NCBI RefSeq assembly: GCF_041435015.1
Contig: NZ_CP107989.1
Coordinates: 992,001 to 1,056,000, forward strand
DNA: 64,000 nt
Direction of reading: 5' to 3'
Source: Streptomyces canus
Lineage (GTDB): Bacteria; Actinomycetota; Actinomycetes; Streptomycetales; Streptomycetaceae
Made by a program: the position numbers and the translations under genes. The notes under the pieces were generated by a model. It ran no database searches and had not been told where the DNA came from. It worked only from the letters and a program-made list of their open reading frames with translations. Positions 50,552 through 61,935 of the stretch are shown piece after piece. Numbering within the stretch: position 1 is the stretch's first letter; each line of letters starts with the position of its first letter.

Positions 50552-50896
50552 TGCTCGTCCCCCTCGACTCGCTGTACTTGTTTCCGTGACATGAACGCGT
50601 GCCCCATTGTTCGGGTCCTGGACCGCCCTCGGGCGCGAAGAACTGGCCATCAGGATGCGCGGGGGCGCACACAGGGCGCCCGTGTACCGTCGCGCGCTTC
50701 CACTGAGGGGGCATGACCCGGGGCCGAGGGGGTAGGCGGTCGCCCTCGCCGTCGCGCGGGCACCCGTGTGTCCGCGCGAGGGAGCGCTCGCCGTGCGGGA
50801 CCCGCCGTGAGGGGGGAGATTTGATCCCTGGGGGCCCGGCACGCGACAGCGGCCCGCGCCCCTTCCGGGACGCGCCCGTGCGAGGAGGTGGTCGGC

Positions 50897-53035
50897 GTGT
50901 CCGACGGGCATAGGTCCGCCCAGGCACCGGCGAGCGCACGGACCCGGGTGGGACGGCCACTGCTCTCCCTCGCGCTGGCGTCGATGATGGACGAGGTGCA
51001 CGCCCACTCCGGCGCGGTGTATCTCGTGGCCGCCGACGAACCCGTGCTGGAGATGGCGGTGATGGCCGGCCTGCCGCGGGCGTTCGCGGCGCCCTGGGAG
51101 CGGGTGGGGCTGAGCGCGCCGATCCCGGTCGCGGAGGCGGTACGGGAGCGGCGGCTGGTGTGGGTGGGCGGCGAGCACGAGATGGCGCGCCGCTTTCCGC
51201 GGATCGCCGTGGTGCTGCCGTATCCCTTCGCGCTGGCCGCGGTGCCGGTGGCGACCTCGGCGAAGGTGTACGGCGCCGTCTTCGTGACCTGGCCCGGTTC
51301 GCACCCGCCGGACCTGTCCGACCGGGAGCGGGAACATCTGATCGCGGCCTGCGGACGGCTCGCGGTGCGGCTGGAGCGGGCGGTGGAGGACAACCTGTCG
51401 CCGCACGCCGAACCGGATCTGCTGGGCGGGGCCCAGGTCGGCAGCCCGGCCGCGACGCTGGGCACGGTGGAGGCGGCGCGGATGGTGGCGAGGCTGCCGT
51501 ACGGGCTGTGTTCGCTCGATCTGCACGGCCGGATCTCCTTCGCCAACGCCGCGGCGGCCGAGCTGATCGGTGTCCCGGTCTCCCAGTTGCTGGGCTCGCA
51601 GCTGTGGGCGGCGGTGCCCTGGCTCAACGACCCGGTCTACGAGGACCGTTACCGGGCCGCGCTGCTCAGCCAGCACAGCACGTCGTTCGTGGCGCTGCGG
51701 CCGCCCGGGGACTGGCTGTCGTTCCGGCTGTACCCGAGCACGACCGGGCTGAGCGTCCGGGTCAGCCGGGCCCGGGCGGTGACGGAGATGAACCGGTCCG
51801 GTCCGCAGCCCGGCGACTCGCCGCCCCGACTGGTCACGATCTCGCAGCTGCTGAGCCTGGCCGGGGCGCTGACCGAGGCGGTGGGCGTGCAGGACGTGGT
51901 GCAGCTGGTGGCGGACGAGATCGCCCCGGCGGTGGGAAGCCAGGCACTGGTCGTGCTCGGTTCACGGGCGGGGCGGCTGCGCGTGCTCGGGCATCGCGGG
52001 TATGCGGACGCGCAGGTCGTGGAGCGGTTCGACGGGCTGCCGCTGTCGGAGCCGACGCCGGGGACGCATGCCCTGACCACCGGGGTGCCGGCGTTCTTCG
52101 ACTCCCGGGAGCAGTTGGAGCGCCTGTATCCGAGGCGGCACGCCACCCCCGACGGGTTCGAGGCCTGGGCCTATCTGCCGCTGATCGCCTCCGGGCGCCC
52201 GGTGGGCACCTGTGTGCTGGCCTACACCGAACGGCACCCCTTCCCCGCGGACGAGCGGGCGGTGCTGACGAGTCTCGGCGGGCTGATCGCGCAGGCCCTG
52301 GAGCGGGCCGTGCTGTACGACGCCAAGCACCAGTTGGCGCACGGCCTGCAGGCGGCCCTGCTGCCGCACAGCCTGCCGTCGCTGCCCGGCATCGACGCGG
52401 CGGCCCGCTATCTGCCGGCCACGCAGGGCATGGACATCGGCGGCGACTTCTACGACCTGGTGCCGGTGGACGCGCTGGCGGCGGCGGTGATCGGGGACGT
52501 GCAGGGACACAACGTGACGGCGGCCGGCCTGATGGGGCAGATCCGGACGGCGGTACGGGCGTACACGACCGTCGGCCAGACACCGGCGGAGGTCATGCGC
52601 TCGACGAACCGGCTCCTGATCGACCTCGGCGCCGAGCTGTTCGCCAGCTGCCTGTATCTGCGGCTCGATCCGCGACGGGGGCGGGCCGTCATGGCCCGGG
52701 CCGGGCATCCGCCCCCGCTGCTCCGACGGCCGGACGGCCGGGTGCGGGTGCTGGACCTGGCCGGGGGCCCGCTGCTGGGCATCGACGGCTCGGCCGTCTA
52801 CCCGACGACGGAGGTGGACCTCGCGCCCGGTTCCGTCCTCGCCCTCTACACCGACGGTCTGATCGAGTCCCCCGGTGTCGACATCGAGGACGCGCTCGCC
52901 GATCTGGGACGGCAGCTCGCCGAGGCCGGTGACCGTCCGCTCGACGAGCTGGCCGACGAACTGGTCCGGCGCAGCGCGGCCGCACGGGAGCGGATCGACG
53001 ACGTGGCGTTGCTGTTGCTGCGGGCCGGCGACTGA
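50897..53035 (+). CDS. SpoIIE family phosphatase with GAF and PAS domains
   Basis: A 712-aa protein: GAF domain (about residues 30-165), PAS (about 190-290; LPYGLCSLDLHGRISFANAA), a second GAF (about 310-470) and a PP2C SpoIIE domain (MDIGGDFYDLVPVD, VIGDVQGHNVTAAGLMGQ, LALYTDGLIESPGVD). Unlike the phosphatase at 40267-42711 it has no HATPase domain. GTG 50897 has AGGAGG eight bases upstream. It would dephosphorylate an anti-sigma-factor antagonist in response to a small ligand. Located right after ramR, so the two phosphatases bracket the ram locus. Confidence 0.88.
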   Translation: MSDGHRSAQAPASARTRVGRPLLSLALASMMDEVHAHSGAVYLVAADEPVLEMAVMAGLPRAFAAPWERVGLSAPIPVAEAVRERRLVWVGGEHEMARRFPRIAVVLPYPFALAAVPVATSAKVYGAVFVTWPGSHPPDLSDREREHLIAACGRLAVRLERAVEDNLSPHAEPDLLGGAQVGSPAATLGTVEAARMVARLPYGLCSLDLHGRISFANAAAAELIGVPVSQLLGSQLWAAVPWLNDPVYEDRYRAALLSQHSTSFVALRPPGDWLSFRLYPSTTGLSVRVSRARAVTEMNRSGPQPGDSPPRLVTISQLLSLAGALTEAVGVQDVVQLVADEIAPAVGSQALVVLGSRAGRLRVLGHRGYADAQVVERFDGLPLSEPTPGTHALTTGVPAFFDSREQLERLYPRRHATPDGFEAWAYLPLIASGRPVGTCVLAYTERHPFPADERAVLTSLGGLIAQALERAVLYDAKHQLAHGLQAALLPHSLPSLPGIDAAARYLPATQGMDIGGDFYDLVPVDALAAAVIGDVQGHNVTAAGLMGQIRTAVRAYTTVGQTPAEVMRSTNRLLIDLGAELFASCLYLRLDPRRGRAVMARAGHPPPLLRRPDGRVRVLDLAGGPLLGIDGSAVYPTTEVDLAPGSVLALYTDGLIESPGVDIEDALADLGRQLAEAGDRPLDELADELVRRSAAARERIDDVALLLLRAGD

Positions 53036-53280: not shown

Positions 53281-54740
53281 TCAGTTGTGCGTCTGGCCCG
53301 CGGCATCACCCGCTGCATCGCCCGCGGCGTCGCCCGCGCCGTTGCCGGTCTGCTGGCCGTTGCCGGCCTCTTCGCCGCCGATCACGTCACCGCCGGCCTG
53401 CTCGCCGCCGACTTCCTGACCGGCGCCGGCCTCCTCACCGGGGCTCGCGCTTGCGTCGCCACCGGCACCGGCCTCTTCGCCCGCACCGGCCCCGGCGTCG
53501 CCACCGGCGCCCGCCTCGTCACCGGCACCGGCACCGGCACCGGCACCGGCACCGGCACCGGCACCGGCCTCCCCGCCGCCGGCCTGGTCGTCGCCCGCGC
53601 CCGCGCCGCCGGCCGCGTCACCCGCGCCGAGCGTGGCGCCGACCGCCTGCAGGGCGGTGGTCACCGGCTGGAAGAAGGTCTCGCCGCCGACGGTGCAGTC
53701 GCCGCTGCCGCCGGAGGTCAGGCCGATCGCCGAGCCGTCCTGGGTGAACAGCGAACCGCCGCTGTCGCCGGGTTCGGCGCAGACGTCGGTCTGGATGAGC
53801 CCGGTGACGGTGCCCTCCGGGTAGTTGACGGTGGCGTCGAGTCCGAGGACCTGGCCGTCGGCGAGGCCCGTGGTGGAGCCCATCCGGAAGACCTGGGCGC
53901 CGACCTCGGCGTCCGCGGCCTGGTTGATCGCGACGGTCTGGCCGCCGCCGACGTTGACCTCGCTGGGTGCCTGGGTCGCCGGGTCGTCGTACTTGACCAG
54001 GGCGAAGTCGCCGTCGCCGGGGAAGGTGGCCTGGTCGACGGTGGCGACCGGCTGGCCGTCCTGGGTGTCCGACCACTGTTCGGCCGCGACCCCGCAGTGA
54101 CCTGCGGTCAGGAAGGCGGGGCTGCCGTCACCCGCGGTGACGTTGAAGCCGAGCGAGCAGCGGGCACCGCCGCCGAAGATCGCGTCACCGCCGGAGACGA
54201 AGGTCTTGAAGGTGCCGGCCGACTTCTTGATGGTCGCCATGTCGGAGCCGAGGCTCTTCACGGTCGACTCGATGGTGTTCCACTTGTCGCCCGTGACCGT
54301 GCTGTCGGCGGTCACGAGAATCTTGTTGGTGCGCGGGTCGACCGCCCAGGACGTGCCCGGGATGGTCGCCTGCTCCTTCAGGGTCTTCGCGCCGGCCGCC
54401 AGTTCGGTGAGGCTGTTGTCGACCTCGCGGACCTTCGCACCGGCCTTCTTCGCCTGCACGACGACGTTCTTGTCGCCGGATATGACGTTCACGACGAGCT
54501 GCCGGCTGTCGGAGTCGTAGTAGGACCCGGCGAAGGCGTCGCCGAGCATCTTCTCCAACTGCGAGGCGAGGTCCGAGGCGTCCGTCGCCTTCAGAGTCTT
54601 CGGCGCGAGGGCCGCCGCGTCGTTCGACGAACCGTCCTGGGACGCGTTGGCGTTGGGCAGCAGAATCGCGGCCGCTCCGAGCGCCACCACAGTGCCTGCC
54701 GCGAACGCGGCCTTGCGCTTCGGAATTCGCTTGTGACTCA
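53281..54740 (-). CDS. S1 family serine protease with Ala/Gly-rich C-terminal tail
   Basis: A 486-aa secreted protease, similar along its length to the protease at 435-1805. The TTG start at 54740 (LSHKRIPKRKAAFAAG...) has AGGAGG eight bases upstream and begins a good signal peptide; the longer frame is not coding. A pro-domain of about 150 residues precedes the catalytic His (TAGHCG), Asp (DFALVKYDD) and Ser (GDSGGS). After the protease domain (ends about residue 370) a 110-residue tail of Gly, Ala, Glu and Asp follows, partly from a hexanucleotide repeat. The tail has no membrane segment. The enzyme is probably released or loosely attached to the cell surface. Natural substrate unknown. Confidence 0.92.
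53521..53568. repeat. Hexanucleotide repeat (ACCGGC)8 in protease tail
   Basis: Eight exact tandem copies of ACCGGC. On the minus strand they encode a Gly-Ala dipeptide run in the C-terminal tail of the protease. Unit length is a multiple of three, so copy-number change would alter tail length but not frame. Confidence 0.95.
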
Positions 54741-54931
54741 AACTTCTCGACCTCCTGGGGGACCGGAGTCTGTAACCGCCGTATGGCAGTTGGTTGTTCG
54801 GGGCGCCTGGATGGCCATGGGTACGCACGGTGCACGCGGTGCGTTCAATGCCGTTTCTTTACGCCCCGATTGCCACGCCGATTCGGCCACCGGCCGTGCC
54901 GGGCGGGCCGCGGGCGGGAAGAATCCCCCAT

Positions 54932-55270
54932 ATGACGATGACGCCCGCCGAAGCCGACAAGGTCCTCGCCGACAACTTCGCCCCTTGGGTCCTCGACCTC
55001 GGCCTGTCGGTCGAGACGCTCGGCGACGACCATGCGGTCCTGCGACTTCCCTGGTCACAGCGATTGGCGCGGGAGGGCGGCGCGTGGTCGGGCCAGGCCC
55101 TGATGGCCGCCGACACCGCCACCGTGATCGCCGTCTCGGCGGCCAGAGGCGCCTGTGGACCGATGACGACAGTGCAGCAGTCCACGAACTTCCAGCGGGC
55201 GGTGTCCGGTTCGATGTCCTGATCAAGGCGGTCGTCACCAAGCCGGGCCGCCGCATGGCGTTCGCCGACA
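54932..55270 (+). pseudogene. PaaI-like hotdog thioesterase, frameshifted
   Basis: ATG 54932 opens a good hotdog N-terminus (ADNFAPWVLDLGLSVETLGD, LMAADTATVIAVSAARG, TTVQQSTNFQRAV), but the frame ends at 55222. The continuation FDVLIKAVVTKPGRRMAFAD is in another frame, from about 55210, and the last strand is missing. The indel near 55200-55210 and the lost end mean there is no complete enzyme. Confidence 0.75.
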
Positions 55271-55718
55271 CGTTCGGCACACGGTCGGCGACGGTCCGTT
55301 GTGAAGAGCGCCCCGAATCCCCCCTCCCGCGAATCTGCACATCGAATGCGCAACCAAGTCACCCCGAGCGGAAGTTCTGCACAAGCACGGACCGGCGCCC
55401 ATGTCATTGGCGAGGTGTGTCGCATTCGCCATGACGACGGCAAGGGTCACTTCACGCCGCCGCAACATCACCTGTGAAGAAGTCGGCACCAAGGCGTGCG
55501 CAAGCCTGCACGGATAGAGGCTTCTGTGACTCAAGTTCCCTGGTGAGACGGGTGGTTAATTGGAAGGGCGGAGCCGCCGCGTGCTTTGATCCATCGCACC
55601 GCAGGGCCGCCGGGGTTTCCGGAAACGGGATCCGGTGCCCTGCGATTGCGGCCGTCATCTGTCCCCAGAGGGGGCCGCTCCCCCCTTGCGAAATACCCAT
55701 ACGAAGGGAAGTTCCATC
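55271..55718 (+). other. 448-bp intergenic region before the exported-peptide gene
   Basis: No gene is supported here. It is less GC-rich than the flanks and contains a 12-bp palindrome GTTTCCGGAAAC (about 55615-55626). The promoter of the peptide gene must lie here; no -35/-10 pair could be chosen with confidence. An open frame at 55474-55722 has poor codon use and is rejected. Confidence 0.5.
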
Positions 55719-55934
55719 ATGAACTCCACCCCCCAGGTTGAGACCGTCGAGATCTCGGACGCCGACCTCGACAACGTCTCCGGCGGCCTGCAGCTGAACG
55801 CCCTCGGCACCGTCACCGGCCTGGTGGACGGCGTTGCCCCGGTTTCCGGCCTGGTCAACACGGTCGTCGGCACGGTCGAGGGTGCGACCGGTCTGAACAC
55901 CGGCGCGGTCACCGGCCTGGTCGCCGGCCTCTGA
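55719..55934 (+). CDS. Double-glycine leader exported peptide precursor (NHLM-type cassette)
   Basis: 71 aa. The leader (1-23) has the EISDADLDNVSGG pattern of C39-processed peptides, with Gly22-Gly23 as cleavage site. The 48-residue core (from Leu24) is built of Gly, Val, Thr, Leu, Ala and Asn with repeated TGLV/SGLV motifs (TVTGLVDG, VAPVSGLVNT, AVTGLVAGL). It has no Cys, Lys, Arg, His, Phe, Tyr, Trp or Met; only one Asp and one Glu are charged. GAAGGGA lies about 9 bases before the ATG. A hairpin and the exporter genes follow. Similar precursors are sometimes annotated as type A2 lantipeptides, but without Cys no lanthionine is possible. Confidence 0.85.
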   Translation: MNSTPQVETVEISDADLDNVSGGLQLNALGTVTGLVDGVAPVSGLVNTVVGTVEGATGLNTGAVTGLVAGL

Positions 55935-55975
55935 TCACCTTTTTCGTGATTTGATCACTATCTTGTGGTCGACCC

Positions 55976-56007
55976 GTCCCGGAGCCGCAAACCGGCGGTT
56001 CCGGGAC
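55976..56007 (+). terminator. Hairpin after the peptide gene (attenuator)
   Basis: GTCCCGGAGCCGC / GCGGTTCCGGGAC: 13-bp stem with one G-U pair and a 6-nt loop, 42 bp after the precursor stop and before the adaptor gene. It would make precursor transcripts more abundant than exporter transcripts. Confidence 0.75.
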
Positions 56008-56094
56008 TCTTGGGTGCCGTAATCAGGCCGGCTCGCGCGAGTCGGTCCTTTCTCATTGGCAGCATTCGCAGCTTTCGCAGGTGAGGGAAGACCC

Positions 56095-56901
56095 GTGCAG
56101 TTCCGCCAACAGGCCCTCGCCAAGCTCCAGTCACCGGAGGAGCTCGACCTTCCGGTGCGCTTCGCCCGTCCGCAGGGCTGGCTGGTGATGTCGGTGACGG
56201 TGGTCGTGATGGCCGCCGCCTCCGTGTGGGCGGTGACCGGTTCGGTGGCCTCCACGGTGAGCGCGCCCGCCATCCTCACGCACGGGCAGGGCAGTTACAT
56301 CCTGCAGAGCCCGGTCGCGGGGCAGGTCACGCAGGTGATCGCCAAGGAGGGCACCCAGCTGCCGGCCAACTCCCCCGTACTGAAGGTCCGTACGTCCGAG
56401 GGCGACACCGTCGTCCGCACGGTCGCCGCGGGTCGGCTCACCGCGCTGGCGGCCACCATCGGGCAGATCATCTCGACCGGCGCTAACGTCGCCGCCGTGG
56501 AGAAGGTCTCCCACGCCTCCGATCCGATGTACGCCACCGTCTATGTGCCCGCCGAGAACGCGGCCTCCATTCCCGAGGACGCCGCCGTGGATCTGACCGT
56601 CTCCTCGGTGCCCAGCCAGGAGTACGGCGTGCTGCGCGGTCATGTGAAGTCGGTGGACCGCTCGGCCCAGTCGGCGCAGCAGATCGCCGCGTTCCTCGGG
56701 GACAGCCAGCTCGGCGAGCAGTTCACCAAGGACGGCCGGCCGGTCGCCGTACTCGTGAGGCTGGACAAGTCCAGGAGCACGAAGAGCGGTTACCGGTGGT
56801 CCTCCGCCGAGGGCCCGCCGTTCGCCCTCACCTCCATGACCGTGGCCTCGGGTTCGATCCGGCTGGCCGATCAGCGTCCCGTCGATTGGCTGCTGCCGTG
56901 A
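56095..56901 (+). CDS. HlyD-like secretion adaptor of NHLM export system
   Basis: A 268-aa protein with a single membrane helix at about residues 29-52 (WLVMSVTVVVMAAASVWAVT). Lipoyl-like halves follow (ILQSPVAGQVTQVIAKEG and RTVAAGRLTALAATIGQIIS), then a beta-barrel part. It is short, with little coiled coil, as in NHLM bacteriocin system secretion proteins. GTG 56095 has GAGGGAAG upstream. Its stop overlaps the next start (GTGA). It joins the ABC exporters to help release the peptide across the thick wall. Confidence 0.88.
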   Translation: MQFRQQALAKLQSPEELDLPVRFARPQGWLVMSVTVVVMAAASVWAVTGSVASTVSAPAILTHGQGSYILQSPVAGQVTQVIAKEGTQLPANSPVLKVRTSEGDTVVRTVAAGRLTALAATIGQIISTGANVAAVEKVSHASDPMYATVYVPAENAASIPEDAAVDLTVSSVPSQEYGVLRGHVKSVDRSAQSAQQIAAFLGDSQLGEQFTKDGRPVAVLVRLDKSRSTKSGYRWSSAEGPPFALTSMTVASGSIRLADQRPVDWLLP

Positions 56902-59120
56902 GCACCGCACAGGACACCCGGAGCAGGCGCCGCTCCGCCCCGCCCAGACGCCCGATCCCCAAGGGGAAGGCGAAGACGGTCCGTACGCCGACCGTCCTCC
57001 AGATGGAGGCCGTGGAATGTGGCGCCGCCTCTCTCGCGATGGTGCTCGGCCACTACGGCAAGCACGTCCCGCTGGAGGAGCTGCGCATCGCCTGCGGTGT
57101 CTCCCGGGACGGCTCGCGCGCCAGCAATCTCCTCAAGGCGGCCCGCAGTTACGGCCTGACGGCCAAGGGCATGCAGATGGACACGGCCGCACTCGCCGAG
57201 GTCAAGACGCCGGCGGTGCTGTTCTGGGAGTTCAACCACTACGTCGTCTACGACGGCATGGGCCGCCGCTTCGGCCGCCGCGGTGTCTACATCAACGACC
57301 CCGGCAAGGGCCGCCGTTTCGTCCCGATGGAGGACTTCGACGGCAGCTTCACCGGCGTCGTGCTGGTGATGGAGCCCGGCGAGGGCTTCACCAGGGGCGG
57401 CCGCAAGCCGGGTGTTCTCGGCGCGATGCCGGCCCGGCTGCGCGGCACCGCGGGCACCATGCCGACGGCGGTGCTGGCGAGCCTGCTGCTGGTGCTGGTC
57501 GGCGCGGCCACTCCCGCGCTGAGCCGCACCTACATCGACATGTTCCTGATCGGCGGGCAGACCTCGCTGCTCGGCGTGCTGTTCGCGTCGATGGGGGCCT
57601 GTGTGGCCCTCACCCTGGCCCTGACCTGGCTCCAGCAGGCGAACCTGCTGCACGGCCGCATCATCTCCTCGACGCTGTCCAGCGCCCGCTTCCTGCGCCA
57701 TCTGCTGCGCCTGCCGGTGACGTTCTTCTCCCAGCGCAGCCCGGCCGACCTGGTGCAGCGCCTCCAGTCCAACGACCAGGTGGCCGAGACCCTGGCCCGT
57801 GACCTCGCTGCGGCCGGCGTCGACGCCGTGGTCGTCGTCCTCTACGCGATCCTGCTCTACACCTACGACCCCCAGCTCACCTATGTCGGCATCGGTGTGG
57901 CCCTGCTGAACGTGGTGGCCATGCGGGTCGTCATCCGCCTGCGGGCGACGCGCACGGCGAAGCTGCGCGCCGACAGCGCCCGCCTCACCAACACCGCCTA
58001 CACCGGCCTGCAGTTGATCGAGACGATGAAGGCGACCGGCGGCGAGGACGGCTACTTCCGCAAGTGGGCCGGGCAGCACGCCACCACCCTGGAGGAGCAG
58101 CAGCGGCTCGGTGTGCCGAGCGCCTGGCTGGGCGTGGTCGCCCCGATGCTGGCCACCTTCAACAGCGCCCTCATCCTCTGGATCGGCGGCATGCGGGCGA
58201 TCGAGGGCGGTATCTCCGTCGGTCTGCTGGTCGCCTTCCAGGCCCTGGTCACCCGCTTCACCGCGCCGATCACCCGCCTCAACGGCGTGGCCGGCCGCAT
58301 CCAGGACTTCGCGGCCGACGTGGCCCGGCTGAAGGACGTGGAGAACTTCAAGGCCGACCCGCTCTACGGCCGCCCCGGCGCCGGCGACTCGACGCGCAGG
58401 CTGCACGGCCATGTCGAGCTGCAGAACATCACCTTCGGCTACAACCCGCTCGACAAGCCCCTGCTGACCGGCTTCGACCTGACCGTAGGACCCGGCCAGC
58501 AGGTGGCGCTGGTCGGCGGCTCCGGCAGCGGCAAGTCGACCGTCTCCCGGCTGATCTCGGGGCTGTACACGCCCTGGGAGGGCGTGATCCGCATCGACGG
58601 ACAGCGCCTGGACGACATTCCGCGCGGCGCGCTCGCGTCCTCGGTGTCCTTCGTCGACCAGGACGTCTTCCTCTTCGAGGGTTCGGTCCGCGACAACGTG
58701 GCGCTGTGGGACCCGTCCATCCCGGACGACGCCGTGGTGGACGCACTGCGGGACGCGGCCCTGTACGACGTGGTGATGCACCGCCCGGGCGGCATCCACA
58801 GCAGGGTCGAGCAGGACGGCCGCAACTTCTCCGGCGGGCAGCGCCAACGTCTTGAGATCGCGCGGGCGTTGGTGCGCCGGCCCAGCATCCTGGTCCTCGA
58901 CGAGGTGACCAGCGCGCTGGACGCGGAGACCGAGCTGGTCGTCATGGACAACCTGCGCAAGCGCGGCTGCGCCTGTGTGGTGATCGCGCACCGGCTCAGC
59001 ACCGTGCGCGACAGCGACGAGATCGTCGTCCTGCAACACGGCACGATCGTGGAACGCGGGCGGCACGAGGAGCTGGTGGCGCGCGGTGGCGCGTACGCGG
59101 CGCTGGTCAAGGAACGGTGA
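56898..59120 (+). CDS. NHLM-type ABC exporter with N-terminal C39 peptidase
   Basis: A 740-aa PCAT-type transporter. C39 peptidase domain, residues about 28-160: Gln35 and Cys41 in LQMEAVECGAAS, His114 in FNHYVVYDG and Asp134 in YINDPGKG, so all catalytic residues are present. Six helices, about 180-440; ATPase with Walker A GGSGSGKST, signature FSGGQRQRLEIARAL, Walker B ILVLDEVTSALD and switch His IAHRLST. It cuts the precursor after the double Gly and exports the core. GTG 56898 overlaps the adaptor stop. Confidence 0.94.
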   Translation: MSTAQDTRSRRRSAPPRRPIPKGKAKTVRTPTVLQMEAVECGAASLAMVLGHYGKHVPLEELRIACGVSRDGSRASNLLKAARSYGLTAKGMQMDTAALAEVKTPAVLFWEFNHYVVYDGMGRRFGRRGVYINDPGKGRRFVPMEDFDGSFTGVVLVMEPGEGFTRGGRKPGVLGAMPARLRGTAGTMPTAVLASLLLVLVGAATPALSRTYIDMFLIGGQTSLLGVLFASMGACVALTLALTWLQQANLLHGRIISSTLSSARFLRHLLRLPVTFFSQRSPADLVQRLQSNDQVAETLARDLAAAGVDAVVVVLYAILLYTYDPQLTYVGIGVALLNVVAMRVVIRLRATRTAKLRADSARLTNTAYTGLQLIETMKATGGEDGYFRKWAGQHATTLEEQQRLGVPSAWLGVVAPMLATFNSALILWIGGMRAIEGGISVGLLVAFQALVTRFTAPITRLNGVAGRIQDFAADVARLKDVENFKADPLYGRPGAGDSTRRLHGHVELQNITFGYNPLDKPLLTGFDLTVGPGQQVALVGGSGSGKSTVSRLISGLYTPWEGVIRIDGQRLDDIPRGALASSVSFVDQDVFLFEGSVRDNVALWDPSIPDDAVVDALRDAALYDVVMHRPGGIHSRVEQDGRNFSGGQRQRLEIARALVRRPSILVLDEVTSALDAETELVVMDNLRKRGCACVVIAHRLSTVRDSDEIVVLQHGTIVERGRHEELVARGGAYAALVKER

Positions 59121-59121
59121 C

Positions 59122-61935
59122 ATGACCTCCCCCCAAGACGGTGACCTGGTCCTCAACGCGCTCGGGCAGATGGGCACGCGGGTCGACTGCGCCGGTTTCA
59201 GCCGTATCGACCTCGAGGGGCCGCAGGTGCTCTGGCTGGTCGTGTCGGGCGCGGTGGACCTGTTCGCGGTCGACGCCGGACAGCAGGGCCACTGGCACCA
59301 CCTGGGCCGTCTGGAGCCGGGCGCGCTGCTGCTCGGGCCGGTGGCGGGGCCGGAGCACACCCTGGTGGCACGGCCCCTCAGGGACTGTGTGGTGCACCGC
59401 ATCGGCCTGCGCGAGCTGTACGAGCCCGCGCACACCCAGACGTGGTCGTACGACGAGTACGGCAACCCCCAGTACGTACCGCCGACGACGAGCCCGCTGG
59501 AGTACGCCCTCGCACTCGGAGTGGGCCGGAGCCTGTCCATCCTCTTCCAGGCGCCGATGGCCGACGAGCGGGCCGCCGCCCCGACCGACGACGACGTGTT
59601 CTGGATGCAGGTGCCGCCGGGCAGCGTGCAGTACGGCTCGCTCTACGGCGCCGAGGCGGCCGCCGACCTGCTGATGGACCCGGCGGTCTGGCAGTCCATG
59701 GTCGACCAGCAGTACCGGCTGCTGACCACGCTGGACCGCTGGATCGAGCAGCTGGAGCGCACCCACGAGACCCGGACGGCCGCGGGTATCAAGGCGGGTG
59801 AGGCCGTGCGCGCCCAGGCCGACCGGACCCTGCTGGCGTCCATCGGCAAGTCGAAGCAGCGCACGACGACGGCCGACGCCGACGCGAGTTACGCGGCCTG
59901 CAAGCTGGCCGCCGACGCGGCCGGGATCCCGCTCGCCGAGAACGCGCACAGCGGCACCGAGAGCGACCGTCTCGATCCGGTCGAGCGAATCGCCCTCGCC
60001 TCCCGCGTCCGGATCAGGTCCGTGCGCCTGGACGGCGGTTGGTGGCGCGACAACGTCGGCCCGCTGGTGGGCCACCGGGCGCTGTCGGGTGCGCCGGTCG
60101 CGCTGCTGTGGCGGCGCGGCGGCTATGTGGCCGTTCATCCGGCGACGGGACGCGAGACGCCGATCGAGAAGGACAACGCGGAGGAGTTCGAGCCGCGCGC
60201 GGTGATGTTCTACCGCCCGCTGCCCGACCGGAGGCTCAGCCCGCTCGGGCTGCTGCGGTTCAGCATGCGCGGGACCAGCGGCGATGTCACGAACCTGCTG
60301 CTCAGCGGTCTGGTGACGGTGGCGATCGGCGCGTTGGTCCCGATCGCGACCGGCAAGGTGCTCGGCGAGTTCGTGCCGAGGGCCCAGACCGCTCTGATCG
60401 TGCAGGTGTGTCTGGCCGTGATGGTCAGCGGGGTGGTGACGGCGGCCTTCATGCTGTTGCAGAACCTCACCATGCTCCGTCTGGAGGGCCGTATCGAGGC
60501 GACCCTCCAACCGGCCGTCTGGGACCGGCTGCTGAGGCTGCCGACGAAGTTCTTCACCGAGCGTTCGACCGGCGAACTGGCCAGCCAGGCCATGGGCATC
60601 AGCTCGATCCGCCGGATGATGGCGGGCATCGGCCCCACCGTCGCCCAGTCGGTGACCGTCGGCGCGATGAACCTGGGACTGCTGTTCTGGTACAGCGTCC
60701 CGATGGCGATGGCGGCGATCGGCATGCTGGTCGTCATCGCCGCCGGCTTCCTCGGCCTCGGGCTCTGGCAGGTGCGCTGGCAACGGCGACTGGTCGTCCT
60801 CAGCAACAAGCTGAACAACCAGGCCTTCCAGACCCTGCGCGGTCTGCCCAAGCTGAGGGTGGCGGCGGCGGAGAACTACGCGTACGCGGCCTGGGCCTCG
60901 GAGTTCGCCCGCAGCCGCGAGCTGCAGCAGAAGGTCGGCCGGATCAAGAACCTCACGTCGGTGATGGGATCGGTCTATCTCCCGCTGTGCACCCTGCTGA
61001 TGTTCATGCTGCTCGCGGGCCCGGCGCGCGGGTCGATGTCGGCGTCCGAGTTCCTCACCTTCAACACCTCGGTGACGATGCTGCTGACCGCGGTCACCCA
61101 GCTCACCGGCGCCTTCGTCTCGGTGGTGGCCGCGCTGCCGTTGTTCGAGGAGATCAAGCCGGTCCTGGACGCGCAGCCGGAGGTGCGCACCGCGAGCACC
61201 CGGCCGGGGCCGCTCACCGGCGCGATGGAGGCCCGCAGGCTGTCCTTCCGCTACTCCGAGGACGGTCCCCTGATCCTGGACGACGTGTCCTTCGAGATCC
61301 GCCCGGGTGAGTTCGTGGCGATCGTCGGCCCGAGCGGCTGCGGCAAGTCGACCCTGCTCCGGCTGCTGATCGGCTTCGACCGGCCGGTCTCCGGGAGTGT
61401 CCTCTACGACGGCCAGGACCTGGCCGCCCTCGACCAGTCGGCGGTGCGCCGGCAGTGCGGTGTCGTCCTCCAGCACGCGCAGCCGTTCACCGGCTCCATC
61501 CTGGACGTCATCTGCGGCACCGAGCCGTACACGCCCGAGGAGGCGATGGCGGCGGCCGCAATGGCAGGGCTCGCGGAGGACATCCAGCGGATGCCGATGG
61601 GGCTGCACACCATCGTCTCGGGCAGCGGGGCGATCTCCGGCGGCCAGCGTCAGCGGCTCATGATCGCCCAGGCGTTGATCCGGCGGCCGCGGATCCTTTT
61701 CTTCGACGAGGCGACCAGCGCCCTGGACAACGACACCCAGCGCACGGTCATCGAGTCCACCAAGGCCCTCAACGCCACCCGGATCGTCATCGCCCACCGG
61801 CTGTCGACGGTGCTGGACGCCGACCGGGTGATCGTGATGGAGAACGGCAAGGTCGCCCAGCAGGGGCCGCCCGCACAGCTCCTCGCGGACACGGGCGGCC
61901 GGCTGCACGAACTGGTGCGGCGGCAGATGGCGTGA
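59122..61935 (+). CDS. NHLM-type ABC exporter, second subunit (no peptidase)
   Basis: 937 aa. A 330-residue N-terminal part starts with a cyclic-nucleotide-binding-like beta fold (VLWLVVSGAVDLFAVDAG, LEPGALLLGPV) and continues with a degenerate peptidase-like region without catalytic Cys. Six helices (about 380-680) and an ATPase with Walker A GPSGCGKST, signature ISGGQRQRLMIAQAL and Walker B ILFFDEATSALD follow. This is the standard partner of the C39 exporter in NHLM systems. It starts 1 bp after the previous stop, so co-translation is likely. Confidence 0.92.
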   Translation: MTSPQDGDLVLNALGQMGTRVDCAGFSRIDLEGPQVLWLVVSGAVDLFAVDAGQQGHWHHLGRLEPGALLLGPVAGPEHTLVARPLRDCVVHRIGLRELYEPAHTQTWSYDEYGNPQYVPPTTSPLEYALALGVGRSLSILFQAPMADERAAAPTDDDVFWMQVPPGSVQYGSLYGAEAAADLLMDPAVWQSMVDQQYRLLTTLDRWIEQLERTHETRTAAGIKAGEAVRAQADRTLLASIGKSKQRTTTADADASYAACKLAADAAGIPLAENAHSGTESDRLDPVERIALASRVRIRSVRLDGGWWRDNVGPLVGHRALSGAPVALLWRRGGYVAVHPATGRETPIEKDNAEEFEPRAVMFYRPLPDRRLSPLGLLRFSMRGTSGDVTNLLLSGLVTVAIGALVPIATGKVLGEFVPRAQTALIVQVCLAVMVSGVVTAAFMLLQNLTMLRLEGRIEATLQPAVWDRLLRLPTKFFTERSTGELASQAMGISSIRRMMAGIGPTVAQSVTVGAMNLGLLFWYSVPMAMAAIGMLVVIAAGFLGLGLWQVRWQRRLVVLSNKLNNQAFQTLRGLPKLRVAAAENYAYAAWASEFARSRELQQKVGRIKNLTSVMGSVYLPLCTLLMFMLLAGPARGSMSASEFLTFNTSVTMLLTAVTQLTGAFVSVVAALPLFEEIKPVLDAQPEVRTASTRPGPLTGAMEARRLSFRYSEDGPLILDDVSFEIRPGEFVAIVGPSGCGKSTLLRLLIGFDRPVSGSVLYDGQDLAALDQSAVRRQCGVVLQHAQPFTGSILDVICGTEPYTPEEAMAAAAMAGLAEDIQRMPMGLHTIVSGSGAISGGQRQRLMIAQALIRRPRILFFDEATSALDNDTQRTVIESTKALNATRIVIAHRLSTVLDADRVIVMENGKVAQQGPPAQLLADTGGRLHELVRRQMA

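Follow-up and report, generated by a model that had tools for sequence, protein, structure and literature searches.

Introduction

The closest described counterpart of the locus considered here is the SCO0753-SCO0756 cluster of Streptomyces coelicolor, in which a small hydrophobic precursor without cysteine is followed by an HlyD-like protein and two ABC proteins. The same gene order was found in a 64,000-nucleotide stretch of the Streptomyces canus genome (contig NZ_CP107989.1, positions 992,001 to 1,056,000; termed the window), where a gene for a peptide with a double-Gly (GG) leader precedes three exporter genes. From this layout, the cassette is taken to be a locus of the SCO0753-0756 type, the peptide of which had already been published. 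The SCO0753 protein has 77 residues, equal to the 71 found here plus six residues of a longer start annotated for some homologues. In the accessible text of Arroyo-Perez et al. 2019 (PMC6629963), SCO0753, the presumed counterpart, is the most raised gene in a dispersed-growth strain (SCO5282-D125G), the cluster is hardly expressed in the null mutant, and the peptide is described as hydrophobic, devoid of cysteines and possibly able to change the hyphal surface. Excerpts from other papers report that SCO0753 is raised in an aor1 mutant and list it as a bacteriocin-cluster gene (PMC5733086), mention SCO0756 (PMC5882110 and PMC6414726) and describe SCO5282/5283 as an OmpR-type pair (PMC9739842). 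The linked peptide alone is described in the accessible part of PMC6629963; the unlinked partners, promoter signature and codon evidence given below come from the present analysis.

Three other types of system invite comparison. NHLM/NHLP export cassettes (TIGR03794/TIGR03796/TIGR03797) resemble the present one in that both ABC proteins score above the curated cut-offs and the adaptor scores near its own, but differ in that the leader here is a short GG leader without a match to nitrile-hydratase or Nif11 models and no modification enzyme was recognised. GG-peptide regulons of the blp/pln/com type, known from streptococci and lactic acid bacteria, are the subject of PMC2714321 and PMC4739728. 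Such regulons work in a similar way, with a dedicated C39 exporter, scattered GG-leader genes and a common upstream element. The present system differs in being actinobacterial, in having the NHLM double ABC set with an adaptor and two boxes ∼108 bp apart, and in that no gene for a sensor, a pheromone or immunity was recognised in linkage with it. A functional model is suggested by SapB/AmfS and the chaplins, which are abundant secreted hydrophobic peptides of Streptomyces. SapB is a lanthipeptide and the chaplins are Sec-exported proteins with a domain of their own, whereas neither a lanthipeptide feature nor a chaplin domain was found here, the latter being absent from the Pfam hits of the precursor to an E value of 10.

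The reading that we favour, and consider reasonably probable, is that one exporter serves several co-regulated, unmodified secreted peptides, which would most likely act on the hyphal surface or envelope. What is new here is the failure of the public label for the precursor, signs of abundant production, a second leader gene in a genome with a single C39 peptidase and a shared two-box upstream signature. Literature searches, limited to 8 to 20 papers each and mostly outside subscription journals, yielded no publication that deals with leader-sharing precursors at unlinked sites or with this signature in Streptomyces.

Results

A recurrent cassette with a cysteine-free precursor

A sequence-only reading of the window had proposed a GG-leader precursor followed by a complete set of adaptor, C39 exporter and second exporter, and this arrangement can be read directly from the sequence. 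The 71-residue precursor consists of a 23-residue leader (residues 1 to 23, MNSTPQVETVEISDADLDNVSGG, ending in LDNVSGG) and a 48-residue core. Counting in the translation gave no Cys, no Lys, Arg or His and no aromatic residue in the core, with a net charge of −2. Both ABC proteins, termed ABC1 and ABC2, exceeded their NCBIfam cut-offs (Table 1), in agreement with the proposed NHLM type of exporter. Inspection by eye detected the C39 motif VECGAASLAM, the His in NHYVVYD and the Asp in INDPG in ABC1, and each of the two ABC proteins carried Walker A, signature and Walker B motifs, all of these being motifs with established functions in exporter proteins. ABC1 was the single C39 protein detected genome-wide at an E value of 0.001. 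No nitrile-hydratase-like or Nif11-like leader model was present among the NCBIfam and Pfam hits of the precursor to an E value of 10. A profile search of solved structures gave no meaningful relative (best E value, 0.18), the end of the leader having weak matches to a solved Nif11 chain (0.69) and a solved NHLP chain (1.9).

A search of ∼5.8 billion proteins gave 662 hits to an E value of 10. The best 120 of these were 83 to 94% identical over the whole precursor, all carried Streptomyces names where organisms were shown, and none contained a cysteine. At an E value of 0.001, a precursor match was present in 196 of 295 Streptomyces genomes, a count that includes genomes with unlinked relatives only, and in 121 of 197 genomes (two of six genera) of an order-level sample. 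In 80 near loci, which include two records not named as Streptomyces (a Kitasatospora and an "Actinobacteria bacterium"), the precursor was followed by the adaptor and ABC1 in every case and by ABC2 in 79; the contig of the remaining locus (L052) ends before ABC2, and two other loci (L054 and L076) are cut. All three exporter genes were also present in 20 of 20 divergent loci chosen by precursor similarity alone (∼46 to 66% identity). Regions around still weaker matches were exporter linked in 2 of 13 cases, the remaining 11 being unlinked, which gave 22 divergent linked loci in total. A C39 protein was detected in 195 of the 196 precursor-bearing genomes, and the exception was a 79% complete assembly. 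The observation made on this one window was, therefore, real and reflects a recurrent arrangement rather than chance.

The sequence-only reading had asked whether absence of cysteine is conserved next to the exporter. No cysteine was found in the best 120 of 662 relatives, in the 22 divergent linked cores or among 31 aligned linked cores. Of the 21 divergent linked cores included in alignment A1, two had aromatic residues, four had His and none had Lys or Arg. The proposal that the cassette lacks a modification enzyme also stood, as Pfam, which identified 12 of the 19 most frequent neighbour clusters outside the cassette, revealed none among these 12; genes were called with a GC3 heuristic and a 70-codon minimum, which under-counts and missed many adaptors. 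The peptides would probably be free of any modification.

A second leader gene and a shared two-box signature

The genome contains a second leader-bearing gene at C1:9122874 (locus L147), ∼8 Mb from the cassette, which was a weak match in a single-sequence search (E value of 0.0056). This gene encodes 65 residues; its leader is related to that of the precursor, whereas its core is a different one and contains one Cys, and no exporter gene was present in the surrounding 14-kb region. A leader profile (A3), whose rows include both genes, detected the two genes in this genome at E values of 2.3e-15 and 1.4e-11, the next value being 1.5. With a held-out profile of ten exporter-linked leaders, the E value of the C1:9122874 gene was 2.1e-7 when 38 loci were searched, and those unlinked genes that this profile detected in the searched loci scored 1.3e-5 or better. 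The C1:9122874 protein had 15 homologues to an E value of 1, described as hypothetical or uncharacterized where named. Reading of the table by eye indicated that 17 of 21 genomes with clearly unlinked genes have a single C39 protein, which would have to serve both peptides if the C39 enzyme cuts the unlinked leader at all. No shared modification enzyme was noticed around the unlinked genes when N termini were read by eye, no family search having been made.

Conserved islands extended ∼390 bp upstream in 110 aligned upstream regions of the precursor genes and included two boxes, TGTGAAGAAG (box 1) and TGCTTTGATCC (box 2), the second of which might represent an extended −10-like promoter element. 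The resulting signature, GTGAAG-A followed after ∼108 bp by TGCTTTGATCC, recurs with a separation between the boxes of 106 to 111 bp before many divergent linked precursors and most unlinked ones. A relaxed form of the pattern (GTGRAGNAN N{94,103} TGNTTNNATCC) had exactly two matches in the 10.7-Mb genome, located upstream of both leader genes, while the backwards control had none. As the pattern was relaxed after L147 had been viewed, the second match is partly circular, and the held-out tests are the profile of ten exporter-linked leaders and a two-box score for which linked genes alone served as the training set. With this score, the best site in L147 (21.4) was 167 bp before the unlinked gene, compared to a maximum of 4.7 in 120 shuffled strands, and sites were also detected upstream of the other unlinked genes with the exception of one pair (L135).

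Of the loci examined, the relaxed pattern was present in 79 of 81 in the near group, 14 of 22 in the divergent linked group and 28 of 30 in the unlinked group, many of these last having been found via the pattern. Among the 295 Streptomyces genomes it occurred in 160, with ∼197 matches by manual count and 3 matches in all for the backwards control; all 160 genomes were precursor bearing, and none of the 99 others had the pattern. Further pattern sites, 27 of which were chosen by eye among the matches listed, stood 5′ of a small GG-leader open reading frame (ORF) in 23 cases, compared to 26 of 3,000 random positions, a control that includes stretches holding true precursors. Three loci with unlinked genes (L136, L137 and L138) and the S. 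canus genome itself were left out of the 27, and at least four rows of uncertain linkage (G098, G119, G129 and G174) lie outside them. Approximately 21 of the 23 positive sites were unlinked, the others being ∼1.6 kb before a C39 gene (L203) or associated with an exporter-type core (L188). Between the boxes, the sequences of 28 unlinked sites had largely diverged while boxes and spacing persisted, a comparison that is partly circular as the sites were found through the boxes. Because similarity between the boxes was largely lost, their persistence suggests that use maintains them and that recent copying does not explain their presence.

Unlinked leader-sharing precursors also occur as neighbouring pairs (L141:6123-6956 and L135:4661-5397), and a separate family of unlinked cores, present in L202, L180 and L142, ends in a VGPVSGQAGFSGG-like sequence.

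Signs of an abundant product

The codon index relative to EF-Tu, based on one EF-Tu gene, was 0.81 for both the precursor and the unlinked peptide gene and 0.62 to 0.69 for the exporter genes. When genes were simulated with the codon usage of the exporter genes, the observed index was reached by 23 of 5,000 precursors (4 of 5,000 when the background also contained the spoIIE gene) and by 102 of 5,000 unlinked genes; for the latter gene the bias is only suggestive of high expression. Synonymous divergence in the same 80 loci was 0.15 for the precursor versus 0.30 to 0.34 for the exporter genes, and nonsynonymous divergence was 0.04 for the leader and 0.08 for the core. The pN/pS ratio of the core (0.55) is high because pS is so low, and the core appears to be constrained yet drifting. 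A terminator- or attenuator-like hairpin in the gap between precursor and exporter genes scored at least 8 in 108 of 110 orthologous gaps versus 0 of 110 after shuffling, and would favour many precursors per exporter. The EF-Tu-like codon bias, the halved synonymous divergence and the hairpin before the exporter genes together suggest an abundant product.

Core shape

A beta-rich, amyloid-like core had been proposed by the sequence-only reading, and here the analysis pointed elsewhere. The AlphaFold2 model was a low-confidence helix (pLDDT, 57), too weak a model for a fold search. Over 31 cores, the hydrophobic moment had its peak at 110° (mean z score of 2.1, the best of 21 angles tried), while at angles of 155° to 180° the mean z score ranged from −0.9 to 0.2, and hence no beta periodicity was present in the family average; the window core alone had a z score of 1.8 at 175°. 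Weak data thus favour a core that may be disordered or helix forming on a surface. Of the earlier interpretation, the exporter type, the Cys-free core and the exclusion of a lanthipeptide were retained, while the beta-rich or amyloid-like shape received no support and now seems less likely. The role beside SapB-like and chaplin-like molecules that the same reading had suggested remains conjectural, the related evidence being the published expression data on the presumed orthologue SCO0753.

Proposed mechanism and alternatives

In the model that we favour, a two-component signal would raise expression of the operon, as the accessible expression data for S. coelicolor suggest, and strong translation would generate much precursor and less exporter, for which the support is indirect. 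The C39 domain would cut after the GG during export, as is known for the family, such that the exporter set (C39-ABC protein, adaptor and ABC2) would release an unmodified, abundant 48-residue peptide rich in Gly, Val, Thr and Leu. Unlinked peptides with the same leader, here the one 65-residue peptide, would be matured and exported by the C39 exporter of the cassette, and linked and unlinked genes would be switched on together via the two-box signature. In the weakest step, the unmodified peptides would form a coat on the hyphal surface or perturb it, with effects on cohesion and morphology. An influence of this kind on cohesion and morphology is the most likely function; in S. coelicolor, the two-component system SCO5282/SCO5283 is required by the presumed orthologue. 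If the model is true, loss of the exporter would remove several peptides at once, an effect that a single-gene study would miss, and the two-box signature would define a regulon that is open to testing and whose partners, in a model genus, are poorly annotated. The formation of pellets in liquid cultures is also of practical concern, as it hampers antibiotic fermentation.

Several observations weigh against this model. The orthology with SCO0753 is presumed from gene order, length and the published description, and the morphology link is one of expression and may be indirect. The TIGR03794 score of the adaptor lies ∼10 bits under the cut-off of 156.2, and 34 genomes have a C39 protein but no precursor match. 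The pattern was missing from 8 of 22 divergent linked loci, several of which carry variants, from 2 of 81 near loci and from 36 of 196 precursor-bearing genomes, and the unlinked pair in L135 is without the signature. Four of the 27 further sites had no peptide ORF and are probably chance matches, but the scores of two peptide-less sites (17.0 for L181 and 11.8 for L206) overlap the low end of those of true sites. Cysteine is present in several unlinked cores. Finally, the unlinked genes may have arisen as paralogues and owe their promoter to descent.

This last point can be extended into an explanation by common descent only, in which the unlinked genes are paralogues with a retained promoter and leader, and the cassette does not export the products of many of them. 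Long 5′ stretches common to some unlinked genes favour such an origin, while the loss of similarity between persisting boxes (subject to the circularity noted above), the intact frames and leaders at 23 of 27 fetched sites and the single C39 protein in most genomes with clearly unlinked genes argue against it, and we regard it as improbable. An unmodified class II-type bacteriocin regulon, with several antimicrobial peptides that are regulated together and leave through one C39 exporter, as is the case for blp/pln, would account for the GG leaders, the one C39 exporter and the unlinked genes with a common upstream signature; four of five unlinked precursors tested also had weak matches to models of bacteriocins or other GG-leader ribosomally made peptides (RiPPs), all below cut-off. 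This regulon type is nevertheless considered unlikely. The core is acidic, no immunity-like gene was recognised among the conserved neighbours (called from 70 codons upwards, with 12 of the 19 commonest non-cassette clusters identified), and the precursor is strongly conserved among the best 120 of 662 relatives, unlike bacteriocins, which diversify. The published record points both ways, as accessible passages call the S. coelicolor cluster a bacteriocin cluster (PMC5733086 and PMC6414726) and tie its expression to morphology (PMC6629963).

A secreted signal was also considered, with the linked peptide as an autoinducer, a two-component system that senses it and in turn activates the two-box promoter, and the unlinked peptides as effectors. 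Dependence of SCO0753-0756 on SCO5282/SCO5283, as given in the accessible text of PMC6629963, and the presence of the same upstream signature before the unlinked genes are consistent with this idea, but the codon bias suggests a bulk product and no linked sensor kinase was recognised among the identified neighbour families, and hence we hold out little expectation for it. A broader version, in which a genus-wide regulon combines one C39/NHLM exporter, a bulk Cys-free peptide, scattered unmodified peptides and one two-box promoter, the linked peptide also being the opening signal, would amount to an unrecognised developmental or surface system; this is a speculative extension, which we think is probably incorrect. 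The public records name a type A2 lantipeptide, and a lanthipeptide has in its favour these database names and a leader style that presumably recalls LanM substrates. Lanthionine rings are excluded because the core is without Cys, as are the cores of the best 120 of 662 relatives and the 31 aligned members. Furthermore, the LanM dehydratase domain (PF13575) was not found in the genome, while the same search was positive in 33 of 121 Streptomyces genomes, and no curated lantibiotic model was present among the precursor hits to an E value of 10. The chance of a lanthipeptide is negligible, and the public label is wrong for a precursor family spread over two-thirds (196 of 295) of the sampled Streptomyces genomes. 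These results left the model of one exporter for several unmodified surface peptides as the preferred explanation.

Features and neighbourhood

Table 1. Coordinates of cassette features and neighbouring elements in the window
Feature	Position	Strand	Remarks
Box 1, TGTGAAGAAG	55473..55482	+	Conserved in 110 aligned upstream regions; near-fixed distance to box 2
Box 2, TGCTTTGATCC	55582..55592	+	Conserved in 110 aligned upstream regions
Inverted repeat GCGGCC...GGCCGC	55648..55678	+	Presumed 5′ UTR (untranslated region); conserved, stem hardly varies in 22 sequences
Ribosome-binding-site-like GAAGGGAAG	55703..55711	+	Invariant in 22 aligned sequences; similar sites 5′ of unlinked precursors
Precursor peptide gene	55719..55934	+	ATG start at 55719, 71 codons; stop ends at 55934
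Terminator-/attenuator-like hairpin	55976..56007	+	Gap between precursor and exporter genes
HlyD/NHLM-type adaptor	56095..56901	+	GTG start chosen by comparison; TIGR03794 146.1 bits; HlyD_3
C39 peptidase-ABC exporter (ABC1)	56898..59120	+	TIGR03796 1018.7 bits (cut-off 853.3); PF03412 (Peptidase_C39), E 4.4e-35
Second NHLM ABC permease/ATPase (ABC2)	59122..61935	+	Without C39 domain; TIGR03797 892.2 bits (cut-off 709.4)
Thioesterase-like frame	54872-55219	+
S1 serine protease gene	53284-54828	-	Divergent from cassette
PAS-GAF-SpoIIE phosphatase gene	50888-53035	+
ZMP/ZTP riboswitch aptamer RF01750	21282-21364	+	62.4 bits (gathering 39)

A known riboswitch in the conserved 5′ region was considered and dropped, as the Rfam scan gave chance-level hits only, none of them near a gathering score. 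The divergent gene for an alpha-lytic/trypsin-like S1 serine protease with a Gly/Ala/Glu-rich tail was rejected as a required partner since its cluster, although found in 76 of 81 near loci, was missing from all 22 divergent linked ones. The frame between this gene and the precursor resembles a thioesterase-like gene (4HBT) that directly precedes the precursor in some relatives, as at L078:7018-7521; because the frame is shorter and without a Pfam hit, it may be a degraded copy of that gene. A LuxR-type response-regulator-like gene was present several kilobases upstream in 18 near loci, and a mixed-strand cluster containing the PAS-GAF-SpoIIE phosphatase gene was present in 69. The ZMP/ZTP aptamer was the sole gathering-level Rfam match in the window.

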